From Nitrosophilus alvini (GTDB lineage: Bacteria > Campylobacterota > Campylobacteria > Campylobacterales > Nitratiruptoraceae): a stretch of DNA of 64,000 nt. Shown here in pieces: positions 30,584 through 57,254 of this stretch (position 1 is the first letter of the stretch; each line of letters opens with the position of its first letter). A program made the position numbers and the translations under genes. Location: positions 1,242,501-1,306,500 of the forward strand of contig NZ_AP022847.1 in NCBI RefSeq assembly GCF_015100395.1, in the 5' to 3' direction. Below the pieces are notes generated by a model, which did no database searches, was not told the origin of the DNA, and saw nothing but the letters and a program-made list of their open reading frames with translations.

Positions 30584-30672
30584 TTCGTGACTCGTAATTG
30601 GTGACTCGTGATTCGTGACTGGTTTTATCTCACACTCACACTCACACCCACACTCACACCAATACTAACACT
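30584..30672 (-). repeat. Composite hexamer/heptamer intergenic repeat, copy 2 (proB-fmt)
   Basis: Read with the flanking genes (minus strand): GAGTGTTAG, then GTGTGAGTGTGGGTGTGAG-type hexamers (about six units), the spacer AGATAAAACCAG, and heptamers TCACGAA/TCACGAG (five units, one as TTACGAG). The array begins inside the end of proB and supplies its last codons and stop (GAG TGT TAG). On the + strand it reads as CACACT and TTCGTGA units. Confidence 0.85.
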
Positions 30673-31423
30673 CAAAAAGCGTTCCGCCCCTGTGTTCACC
30701 TTTTAGCAGAAAACTTTTCACATCACTCAGGTCAAATCCACTTGCAAGAAAAACCTTGCGTCCATGCTTCAACAGAAAATCGGCAGCTTTCAGTTTTGTT
30801 ACTATACCGCCTGTAGCAAATCTGTAATTGGGAGTATATTCACATTCAAGCTCTTTAGGATCTATATGGCTTACAACTTTTTGCAGTTTTGCATCAGGAT
30901 ATTTTTTAGGATCTTTGTCATAATATCCATCTATATCGGATAGGATTACCAGCATTTGGGCATCAAAATAGTATGCAACATGCGCTGAGAGCTGATCATT
31001 ATCTCCGAAAACAAGCTCTTCCGTCGCAGTAACGTCGTTTTCATTTATAATAGGTATAACCCTGTTTTTCAAAAGCACTTCAATGGCATTTCTTGCATAC
31101 GCAGTCCTCTTTCTTGAGTCAAAATCATCTGCAGTCAAAAGAACCTGTGCACAGACAATACCGTGTTTTTCAAACTTCTTCTGATAACTCTTCATTAAAA
31201 AAGGCTGACCTATGGCCGCAAGGGCCTGTCTGTTTGCTATCAGTTTTTTGTCCAGTTTCACTCTCGTATATCCTGCCGCTACGGCTCCAGAACTTACAAG
31301 GATAATCTCGAAGTTTTGTGCCGCTTCAGAAAGGAAATCCACAAGTTTCTGCATACGCTCCCTGGCAAGCCTGTTGTTTTCGGTCAATACTGCACTTCCT
31401 ACTTTTACAACGATTCTTTTCAA
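30665..31423 (-). CDS. proB: Glutamate 5-kinase, short form without PUA domain
   Basis: First step of proline synthesis, phosphorylating glutamate. The 252-aa amino-acid-kinase domain is complete: [11 protein letters not shown] (start), [35 protein letters not shown] (split motif at about 133-158) and [13 protein letters not shown]. The C-terminal PUA domain of E. coli ProB (367 aa) is missing, as in other Campylobacterota. The final residues FEC and the stop codon come from the edge of an intergenic repeat. The start overlaps the obg stop (ATGA). Confidence 0.93.
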
Positions 31424-32511
31424 CTTTTCTCTCCGATTTTTACAAGGTCATAAAGTGCAAACATCAATGGCCTTATATTTATATTCGATACGGAGGATAT
31501 AGGAAACACAAAATAGGGTTTGGATTTTTCCAAATGTTCTGTCTCCTGTATAAAATATCTGTATCTTTCATCAAGTCCGTATCTGTTTTCGCCTCCCGGT
31601 TCAAGTCCTATATCTTTTATAAACTTCTCAATCTTTTCGTTTGCTTCCGCCTCATCAAATGCATCTACTTTTGTCAAAGCTATTGCGAACTCTCTCTTGC
31701 TAAGTCTTTCAGAAAATTTTTTTAGCTCTTTTTTCAAAATTTCATACTGCTTAAAAGGCTCTCTGTAACTTGCAAGATCTATCATAAAAAGAAGGGATTT
31801 AGTCCTCTCTATATGCTTTAAAAACCGCAGTCCCAGTCCTTTCCCTTCGCTGGCTCCGCCTATAATACCCGGAATATCGGCCATAACAAATGATTTGTAT
31901 TCATCTATACTTACAACTCCCAGTTTCGGTGTAAGTGTCGTAAACTCATAATTTGCAATTTCAGGTCTGGCATTTGATACCACGGATATGAGTGTAGATT
32001 TTCCGGCATTAGGAAATCCTACAAGACCCACATCAGCAATTAGTTTGAGTTCTAGTCTTATCTTTCTAGTCTTTCCGGGAAGTCCCGGTTGTGCATAAGT
32101 GGGCTTCTGGTTTGATGCGGACCTGAAGTGCCAGTTTCCAAGCCCTCCTTTGCCGCCTTCAAGAAATTTTACCTTTTGACCGTCTTCGGTCAGATCCAGA
32201 AGCAGTTCACCTGTTTCGGCATCTCTGACTTCCGTTCCCGGAGGAACTATCAACACAAGAGGCCTGCCGTTTTTTCCATGCTTTTTTCTTCCTTCGCCAG
32301 GCTTTCCGTTTTCAGCTTTGAGTACCTTTTTCCCTTTAAAGTGTGAAAGAGTATGGGTATTTTTATCCACTACAAAATATACGTCTCCTCCCTTCCCTCC
32401 GTCACCGCCGTCGGGTCCTCCTTTTGGAATGAATTTTTCTCTTCGAAAGGAGACGGCGCCGGCTCCGCCTTTACCTGAACTTACTGTCAATTCTACACTG
32501 TCAACAAACAT
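31420..32511 (-). CDS. obg: Ribosome-assembly GTPase Obg
   Basis: A 363-aa GTPase acting in 50S assembly and stress control. The Gly-rich Obg domain (about residues 1-158: [17 protein letters not shown] at the start) is followed by the G domain ([10 protein letters not shown] about 166-175, [16 protein letters not shown], and a LTKVDAF G4 motif). The C-terminal region is short. It follows rplU-rpmA, as in most bacteria, after a 150-bp gap. Confidence 0.96.
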
Positions 32512-32639
32512 AAATATCCTTGGGAAATTAAAAATTTATCAATCACTATTATCCAAATACGAAATTATTATATAGAAAAATGGTTAAATACCATATTTAA
32601 TAAAAAAGATTTTGCGGAGATTTTCAAATATTCGGAGTC

Positions 32640-32660
32640 TTTTCGGGCAAAGCCCGAAAA
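32640..32660. other. Perfect inverted repeat between rpmA and obg
   Basis: TTTTCGGGC-AAA-GCCCGAAAA, a 9-bp stem with a 3-nt loop directly after the rpmA stop. It lacks a U tract on the minus strand, so it is not a standard terminator; it may stabilise the rpmA 3' end or attenuate obg. The remaining 128 bp up to obg are AT-rich and may hold an obg promoter, but no single box stands out. Confidence 0.6.
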
Positions 32661-32915
32661 TTATGCAGGATAGACGGAGATTTTTTGTCTTTTTTTATCT
32701 TTTCTTTCAAATTTTACATATCCGTCAACAAGAGCATATATAGTATGGTCTTTTCCCATACCTACATTGTTTCCGGGATGGATTTTTGTACCTCTTTGTC
32801 TGATTATGATATTTCCGGCTCTGACAAATTCGCCGCCGAATTTTTTCACACCCAGTCGTCTACCGGCACTGTCTCTGTTATTCTGGGTACTTCCCTGACC
32901 TTTCTTGTGAGCCAT
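32661..32915 (-). CDS. rpmA: 50S ribosomal protein L27
   Basis: An 84-aa ribosomal protein near the peptidyl-transferase centre. It starts [20 protein letters not shown], the usual unprocessed N-terminus (no Firmicutes-type leader to cleave). It lies 10 bp after rplU. Confidence 0.97.
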
Positions 32916-55584: not shown

Positions 55585-55692
55585 CTATTCGCCTTTTGGA
55601 TTTATACCCTATAAAAATATGTTTAAAAATTCTTTAATAATTATTACATTTTTTTATAAATTTGAGATTAAAATGAAAGTCTTGCTTTATCT

Positions 55693-55713
55693 AAAAGAGG
55701 CATCGCCTCTTTT
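55693..55713 (-). terminator. Rho-independent terminator of guaB
   Basis: Stem AAAAGAGGC / GCCTCTTTT with a 3-nt loop, immediately after the guaB stop. The T run forms the right arm. The remaining 108 bp up to metX are very AT-rich (about 80 per cent) and probably hold its promoter. Confidence 0.82.
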
Positions 55714-57159
55714 TTAAACATGGTAGTTCGGAGCCTCTTTCGTAATTGTAACATCATGAACATGTGACTCTTTCAAACCGGCTTGAGTAATCTCCACAAA
55801 CTCTGCTCTTTCGTGAAAAGCAGCGATATCTTTTGCACCCACATATCCCATAGAAGATCTAAGACCACCTATCAACTGATGTACGACATTTGATATTTTG
55901 CCCCTGTATGGAACCATTCCCTCAATACCTTCCGGAACAAGTTTATCGGCAGCAGTTCCTTCCTGAAAATATCTATCGGTACTTCCTTTTGTCATAGCGC
56001 CGATACTTCCCATGCCTCTATATGTTTTATACTGGCGTCCCTGATACATAACAACTTCGCCGGGACTCTCTTCCGTACCTGCGAGAAGACTTCCTATCAT
56101 TACACAACTTGCACCGACCGCAAGAGCTTTTGCAACGTCGCCGGAATACTTTATACCTCCGTCTGCGATAACAGGCACATCAAACTCTTTTGCCGCCTGT
56201 GCGCACTCGTCTATGGCACTTATCTGCGGAACACCCACACCGGCAACGATTCTTGTTGTACATATACTTCCGGGACCTATCCCTACCTTTACACCGTCCG
56301 CACCTGCCTTGCAAAGGTCTATAGTTGCTTCTGCTGTAGCAACATTTCCGGCTATCACATCTATAGCAAGTTCAGCTTTTATCATTTTAAGAGTATCTAT
56401 GATTCCCTGGGAATGTCCATGAGCAGAATCAAGAACAAGGACATCGACTCCGGCTTCCACAAGAGCTTTTGCTCTGTCAAGCTGGTTTACTCCTATAGCG
56501 GCACCTACTCTTAGCCTTCCATATCCGTCTTTGTTGGCATTTGGATACTCGATCCTCTTTTTTATATCTTTAATAGTGATAAGACCCTTTAGATATCCTT
56601 CATCATCAATAATAGGAAGCTTTTCTATTTTATGCTTATGCATGATTTCCGCCGCTTCTTCCAGAGTTGTTCCCTGCTTGGCAGTCACAAGAGGCATTTT
56701 TGTCATAACCTCTTCCACTTTTTTGTTCATATCGGTTTCAAATCTCATATCTCTGTTTGTCAGTATTCCAAGAAGTTTCTTATGCTCATCAACCACAGGA
56801 ACTCCCGAAATTTTATACTCACTCATAAGCCTGTCCGCATCTTTGAGAGTAGCTCCGGGATGAACGAAAATAGGGTCTATTATGATACCGCTCTCACTTT
56901 TTTTTACTCTTTTTATCTCCATAACCTGAGAATCTATATCCATGTTTTTATGGATTATTCCTATCCCTCCTAAACGTGCCATTGCGATAGCTGCTCTATA
57001 CTCCGTTACTGTATCCATCGCAGCGGAAATAAGAGGCATATTGAGAGTGATATTTTTTGTAAGCCTCGTACTTATATCTACCTCCTTGGGAAGTACGTTA
57101 GAATGTTTAGGCACAAGCAATACATCTTCAAATGTCAATGCTCTTTTTCTTATCTTCAT
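55714..57159 (-). CDS. guaB: Inosine-5'-monophosphate dehydrogenase
   Basis: Converts IMP to XMP in GMP synthesis, 481 aa. The barrel is interrupted by a CBS pair (about residues 88-205), and the active-site loop [16 protein letters not shown] has the catalytic Cys (about 300). [10 protein letters not shown] (the IMP-binding region) and the flap are normal. It is flanked upstream by a composite repeat whose last heptamer touches its ribosome-binding site CAGGAG. Confidence 0.97.
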
Positions 57160-57169
57160 ATTTTCTCCT

Positions 57170-57254
57170 GTGACTGGTGATTCATAATTCGCAATTCGTG
57201 ATTCGTGATTGGTGGTTAGTGATTGGTTTTACCCACACCCACACTCACACTAAC
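57170..57254 (-). repeat. Composite hexamer/heptamer intergenic repeat, copy 5 (gatA-guaB)
   Basis: On the minus strand, 1 nt after the gatA TAA: GTTAGTGTGAGTGTGGGTG (three hexamers), TGGGTAAAACCA, then ATCACTAACCACCAATCACG and further ATCACGAATT-type heptamers (about eight, the longest heptamer array). It ends at GTCAC, directly fused to AGGAG of guaB. Confidence 0.88.

Follow-up and report, generated by a model that had tools for sequence, protein, structure and literature searches.

Short tandem units make up the short tandemly repeated repetitive (STRR) sequences of cyanobacteria, and intergenic arrays of heptamers have been reported in distant phyla, without agreement on their origin and role. 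The G-rich heptamers GGGAATC and GGGGA(C/T)T of Xanthomonas and Nostoc are described as intergenic in a report according to which their functional role remains to be elucidated (Rehm 2015, PMC4692102), and TAACTGA repeats are described from Beggiatoaceae, some Cyanobacteria and Bacteroidetes (MacGregor 2015, PMC4679880). The heptanucleotide elements of Geobacter metallireducens are given as a multi-copy family of four heptamers with 49 copies (PMC2700814). Among the long simple sequence repeats of prokaryotes, heptamers are stated to be the commonest of the longer units, and slippage has been proposed (Mrazek 2007, as cited in PMC4679880 and PMC4692102). Here, we describe a composite repeat found in a window of 64,000 nucleotides (nt) of Nitrosophilus alvini, bases 1242501-1306500 of genome G000, a single contig of 1,807,889 bases. 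In each clear copy, a hexamer array, (GTGTGR)n, is followed on the same strand by a heptamer array, (ATCACGA)n. On balance, and with modest confidence, we regard this composite as a lineage-specific, slippage-prone and non-autonomous dispersed repeat that is retained almost only at gene junctions, where it would loosen the coupling of neighboring genes.

Genome-wide screening and likeness among copies

The N. alvini genome was screened with a heptamer pattern, allowing up to three mismatches, and a hexamer pattern, allowing up to two. The heptamer-array pattern returned 85 matches genome-wide against 0 for the same pattern read backwards, and the hexamer pattern 110 against 109, a control that is void for the hexamer alone, GTGTGR being identical when reversed. 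Among the matches listed, from which hexamer-only loci may be under-counted, 47 clusters were built and each was read; 43 are intergenic and 27 were curated as composites in which hexamers are followed by heptamers. By regular expression, the 47 clusters split into 29 with both words, seven with hexamers only, seven with heptamers only, one with neither, two inside open reading frames (ORFs) and one masked, and curation removed two of the 29, at 1198934 (a single stray heptamer match) and 1394972 (heptamers inverted). A strict composite pattern gave 25 matches, some of them overlapping, versus 0 for its control. Module order was counted without presupposing it, at the 28 loci where pairs of both words lie no more than 90 nt apart: the heptamers come after the hexamers at 27, before them at none and on the opposite strand at one. 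With units of 6 and 7 nt, numbers beyond chance and mainly intergenic positions, the arrays agree with the tandem units of 5-11 nt that characterize intergenic heptamer arrays and long simple sequence repeats. The initial annotation had proposed a repeat family with a constant module order, varying copy number, a fixed spacer and an eroded fifth copy, and the family, its module order and its varying copy number are supported, while the spacer and the fifth copy are not.

Regarding the spacer, the hexamer-to-heptamer junction measures, as parsed, 0-22 nt, with GTAAAACC, GTGAAACC, GTGAAAGCTC and a bare A as recurring types. A junction resembling GGTAAAACCA was found in only about six of the 27 composites (manual count), and the ACCA seen at the junction is often the start of the first heptamer, ACCAATC. 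Whole composites nevertheless align, and the best-aligned pairs (90-94% over 53-71 nt) all lie hundreds of kilobases (kb) apart: 1299733 with 357055 (92.6% over 68 nt) and with 363647 (90.1% over 71 nt), 1280079 with 339834 (94.3% over 53 nt), and 1513504 with 702121 (91.8% over 61 nt). At a shorter distance, copies 146289 and 148235, in inverted orientation 1.9 kb from each other, have the same junction string of 28 nt. Arrays occurring independently of one another, or an unconserved spacer, had been expected to speak against a family, and the genome-wide outcome is mixed, with the hexamer-only and heptamer-only clusters and the variable junction on one side and the whole-composite alignments on the other. 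Because odd junctions recur at distant loci and the 90-94% alignments run across the whole composite, the arrays are best read as one dispersed family whose composites would descend from one another, a reading that is supported, not proved, by the sequences.

Two further occurrences of these and other words were seen during the reading of the clusters. At genome position 200855 (L069, about 1450-1580), a short hexamer array lies antisense within an intact-looking ORF of 343 amino acids. A second dispersed repeat, GGCGATGTGCAGAGCGGAGCGATTGCACCGCC, with GAAGGTTGAAGG words alongside, adjoins copies consisting of heptamers only, at 316 and 1623 kb; it is positioned at L060:1393-1424, L081:1583-1614 and L043:341-372 (L043 overlaps L060), and a related copy is found at about 365.5 kb.

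Placement between genes

The arrays occupy the interval that separates a stop codon from the Shine-Dalgarno sequence of the next gene, mostly in codirectional gaps. According to ORF-based gene calls, 30 of the 47 clusters are co-oriented with their neighbors, eight are convergent, five anti-oriented and one divergent, the remainder being the two inside ORFs and the masked one; within codirectional gaps, co-oriented clusters outnumber anti-oriented ones by 30 to 5 (p = 2e-5). The calls were made mechanically and include errors: the cluster at 365529, called divergent, reads as anti-oriented, and those at 278870 and 465454 read as co-oriented despite a convergent call. The first hexamer lies at a median of 4.5 nt after the upstream stop codon (n = 32), and the median distance from the end of the heptamers to the downstream start codon is 16 nt, with 18 of 27 distances falling at 13-22 nt. 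Array phase extends over the stop codon itself at 11 of 29 loci. At proB-fmt the hexamers supply both the final codon and the stop (TGT TAG), an ending that ProB lacks in all five further genomes where this gene pair occurs.

Orthologous gaps in relatives

Many copies with the same module order, which the initial annotation would take as support for a real family, are present in N. alvini; the comparison among genomes did not extend this, as the strict composite occurs in one of the 398 genomes of the order, with 0 matches in the other 397. It also had 0 matches in sets of genome contigs and viral contigs, from both of which the own and near genomes were possibly left out, and a phage origin was rejected on the viral set, with that same limit. 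The single words reach further. In genus g2 of the same family, hexamer matches number 36 in G001 and 51 in G007, versus 0-4 in the other seven genomes tested, and heptamer matches among 60 genomes, N. alvini apart, number 14 in G003, two in G001, one in G009 and none in the rest. At least four of the 14 g2 loci viewed (L104, L105, L112 and L115, of which L104 and L105 are orthologous) have hexamers followed by a C-rich period-7 ladder, and at three of these four a stop codon adjoins the array.

hisH and hisA lie 0 or -1 nt apart in 10 of the 12 genomes compared, including N. alvini; the gap measures 116 nt in G001 and 126 nt in G007, two species of genus g2 with 87.6% identity over 3 kb at this locus. 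When these two gaps are aligned, they differ by 24 nt (four hexamers) and 14 nt (two heptamers), and in both genomes the insert also adds a new AAAGGA before the start codon. Variation of unit number between relatives, another trait of intergenic heptamer arrays and long simple sequence repeats, is thus present at one g2 gap. At gatA-guaB, eight of 12 genomes have a gap of -4 to 16 nt and G003 has one of 41 nt; G001 and G007 have 97 nt holding other words, and N. alvini has 96 nt holding the present family. For the same gene pair proB-fmt, the gap is 96 nt in N. alvini, 107 in G003, 48 in G001, 220 in G007 and 1 in G009, and the genes overlap in G010; this comparison leaves out five g3 genomes, where the upstream gene is different, and G005, where the fmt match is weak. 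Many ordinary gaps of a syntenic region have a constant length across genera (e.g., 35/33/29/35 and 70/70/70/67 nt), with exceptions where G003 or G001 has an insert and N. alvini has none. Taken together, both modules differ by whole units at one gap of the sister genus, the arrays lie between the stop codon and the Shine-Dalgarno sequence, and inserts stand where the genes of most relatives abut. Since the gaps of relatives hold arrays whose words differ by lineage, the occupation of gene junctions by word arrays appears to be a more general trait of the family, with the composite as the dialect of N. alvini.

Other kinds of arrays were seen in these relatives. In G003 and G007 (L268, L270, L287-L289), there are junction inserts of inverted word arrays, e.g., GGTATATTAG ... 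CCAATATACC, at places where the genes abut in some relatives. Hexamer arrays are arranged as inverted repeats at L117 and L125 of G007, one of them followed by a T run, resembling an intrinsic terminator. Inside an ORF, at L100 and L101 (G001 and G007), there are hexamer and CACCTTACC-like arrays that seem, by eye, to differ in length from one species to the other.

Copies in the window

The four clear copies reported for the window were all recovered, with four matches of the composite pattern versus 0 in 200 window shuffles, and the tandem score detected arrays at p < 0.01 in four of the 24 window gaps of at least 30 nt. Copy 1 (about 30585-30671, minus strand) has seven hexamers at 30630-30671, where the proB stop codon is the TAG within a GTGTTAG of the array, the junction GATAAAACC at 30621-30629, and about five heptamers at 30585-30620, after which come AAAAAAGGAG and the fmt start codon. 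Copy 2 (37549-37596, minus strand) lies upstream of dapE and consists of three hexamers (37579-37596), the junction GTAAAACC (37571-37578) and about three heptamers (37549-37570). Copy 3 (42999-43076, plus strand) occupies a convergent gap; its nine hexamers (42999-43052) start on the stop codon of the gene at 42196-42999 and are followed by the junction AATGAA (43053-43058) and about 2.6 heptamers (43059-43076). Copy 4 (57196-57250, minus strand) begins directly after the gatA stop codon with three hexamers (57233-57250), continues with the junction GTAAA (57228-57232) and about 4.6 heptamers (57196-57227), and has further eroded units reaching about 57175; it is located upstream of guaB. The eroded fifth copy claimed at 13847-13930 (minus strand) is not counted here: it has neither word array, its gap scores p = 0.09 for tandem repeats, and it is a word mosaic without the family words in a gap of 181 nt, versus 9 nt in G003. 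At gathering scores, Rfam identified only four tRNAs in the window and no match to the arrays. The flanking genes named above the curated cut-off in the window, fmt, proB, dapE, guaB and gatA, are housekeeping genes.

Interpretation and rival explanations

In the explanation that we favor, a full copy would be a period-6 array joined to a period-7 array, and whole composites would have spread to new gene junctions, a dispersal supported by the sequences, presumably by templated copying or recombination. At each site, whole repeat units would then be gained or lost, most likely by replication slippage, which would also be acting in N. alvini. Purifying selection could be what confines copies almost entirely to the interval from a stop codon to the following Shine-Dalgarno sequence, where they are found. 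The net effect would be that abutting or overlapping gene pairs come to lie about 100 nt apart, the downstream gene having its own ribosome-binding site; looser translational coupling is a probable consequence, the change being otherwise near neutral.

Several points weigh against this explanation. For most of the other copy pairs, identity is roughly 71-90%, and the tandem nature of the words raises such values. Likeness does not clearly increase with proximity (p = 0.07), nor are the loci clustered (p = 0.35), for which reasons a regional spread was rejected. No copying enzyme was identified for the spread of composites, and neither of the marks of a miniature inverted-repeat transposable element (MITE), terminal inverted repeats and target site duplications, was seen by eye in the loci viewed, where no systematic search was made. 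The comparison of gaps covers few loci, namely three gene pairs in up to 12 genomes and one syntenic region, in which some gaps without the element also differ by tens of nt or more (e.g., -4 in N. alvini versus 174 in G003). Furthermore, the hisH-hisA insert is carried by the sister genus and not by N. alvini, and the change in unit number was seen in this one orthologous gap, in genus g2. As for placement, nine of the 27 heptamer-to-start distances fall out of range, three being long and six negative, the latter because the longest ORF begins upstream; a Shine-Dalgarno-like motif follows the heptamers within 30 nt in only 16 of 27 composites, a set that includes a few from convergent gaps.

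It could also be that slippage built the array independently at each gap, the same words recurring because the replication machinery favors them. Arrays of the heptamer AATYACG are indeed widespread among phyla (at least 119 stretches, in Cyanobacteria, Bacteroidota, Xanthomonadaceae, Acidobacteria, Chloroflexota and others), the corresponding gaps of relatives contain different words, a polymerase slippage hypothesis for heptamer abundance is reported in PMC4692102, and the likeness of copies could follow from the ease with which low-complexity words align. However, two words in one order at 27 of 28 loci, shared odd junctions and 90-94% identity at distant loci are hard to obtain in this way, and we consider independent growth unlikely. 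The AATYACG arrays of unrelated phyla (L126-L205, 80 loci viewed) often adjoin other word arrays. We likewise see little likelihood in a mobile gene-spacer cassette, a minute element which would land exactly between abutting or overlapping genes by templated movement, its hexamers supplying a stop codon and its remainder a leader that ends at the ribosome-binding site, and would switch operons from coupled to uncoupled translation, with the words as lineage "dialects." Highly improbable, in our view, is growth from two ends, in which C-poor, G/T-rich repeats would be added to a break at the junction, starting from either gene edge, before the ends are joined. Both modules are indeed C-poor on the strand leaving the flanking gene, and their G content climbs towards the middle (p = 1e-4 for 26 hexamer arrays, p = 5e-5 for 22 heptamer arrays). 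In addition, the skew is larger on the left than on the right, passing from G-rich to C-richer, in 11 of 14 array gaps versus 11 of 41 others when four genomes are summed, and in seven of 10 versus nine of 30 without N. alvini. However, the copies probably share descent, so that these gradients would not be independent and may reflect one ancestral ladder. The AATYACG arrays of other phyla have no such polarity either, the nearest gene being on the right in 26 of 57 loci (80 given, minus 13 inside ORFs and 10 without both neighbors), and a universal outward polarity was rejected. No PF00078 reverse transcriptase was matched in N. alvini, versus one in G001, which speaks against two-ended growth and led to the rejection of a retroelement (retron, diversity-generating retroelement or group II intron). 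Loss of mismatch repair was rejected as a cause upon searching for MutS, as MutS_I (PF01624) is present in N. alvini and in 42 of the 60 genomes searched.

Other explanations assign the arrays a function in RNA. A post-transcriptional binding site before start codons, as proposed for the Beggiatoaceae TAACTGA (S1, cold-shock and CsrA proteins), would agree with the 18 of 27 cases in which the heptamers end 13-22 nt before the start, a placement akin to that described in PMC4679880. The same genes in relatives lack the words, though, copies with hexamers only and copies in convergent gaps occur, and the housekeeping genes named in the window have no common theme; we find such a role decidedly unlikely. 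Very unlikely is an RNA hairpin serving as terminator or stabilizer, in which a 6-nt arm would pair with a 7-nt arm at five pairs per unit. Some folded copies (1280079 and the copy at 37546) have regular 5-bp steps, the mean z score over 31 two-module loci is -0.93, and inverted-repeat hexamer arrays exist at 89989 and 717981 and in G007 (L117 and L125). Although five base pairs per unit would account for periods of 6 and 7, the two-arm hairpin was rejected on three tests: arms pair no better with their own partner than when swapped between loci (p = 0.65), a reversed 3' arm pairs better (-16.0 versus -13.2 kcal/mol), and the lengths of the two arms show no correlation (rho -0.28, p = 0.16, n = 27). 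That the element has no strong hairpin and is not one of the standard repeats, as the initial annotation had held, agrees with these results. Repetitive extragenic palindromic (REP) sequences or bacterial interspersed mosaic elements (BIMEs) with a REP-associated tyrosine transposase were rejected, the Y1 transposase PF01797 being absent from N. alvini and a conserved imperfect hairpin being unsupported by the swap test, and so was CRISPR (clustered regularly interspaced short palindromic repeats), given units of 6-7 nt and no spacers.

Comparison with known systems

The orthologous gaps behave as before-and-after pairs, with zero length in most relatives, arrays in others and, in one such gap, hexamers and heptamers that both change in number by whole units. 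Thereby, the origin and growth of arrays and their effect on gene coupling become directly testable, and the family offers an example of spacer creation inside operons.

The Xanthomonas and Nostoc repeats, as described in PMC4692102, resemble the N. alvini arrays in being heptamer arrays dispersed between genes, under a rule of strand and distance that is closely similar, in being few in divergent gaps, in varying in length among relatives and in having no function assigned in that report. They have one word per site, a preferred number of four units and quadruplex formation, whereas N. alvini has two joined words with periods of 6 and 7 and shows four GG tracts in just one of 27 hexamer arms and four GGG tracts in none, on which a quadruplex was rejected. 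The TAACTGA repeats, in the account of PMC4679880, are likewise heptamer arrays located just upstream of start codons and oriented towards them; they have a different word and no hexamer partner, and most end within several nt of the start, without a ribosome-binding site, unlike the heptamer array of N. alvini, which mostly stops 13-22 nt before it. The G. metallireducens elements have a GC-rich word and lie both within and between genes, and PMC2700814, in the part that describes them, mentions no second module. Long simple sequence repeats and STRR sequences share the short tandem units, and a dispersed two-module composite is not among their descriptions in the sources cited.

The initial annotation knew of no described element with this structure, which stands for the joined 6-nt and 7-nt composite, of which no description was found in the open-licence PMC literature, and not for its heptamers, as similar arrays are published (PMC4692102, PMC4679880). 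Because a similar placement rule is in the literature and the AATYACG heptamer occurs in many phyla, our best reading is that the composite belongs among the intergenic heptamer arrays, a published kind, and that the joining of two words is its new part.

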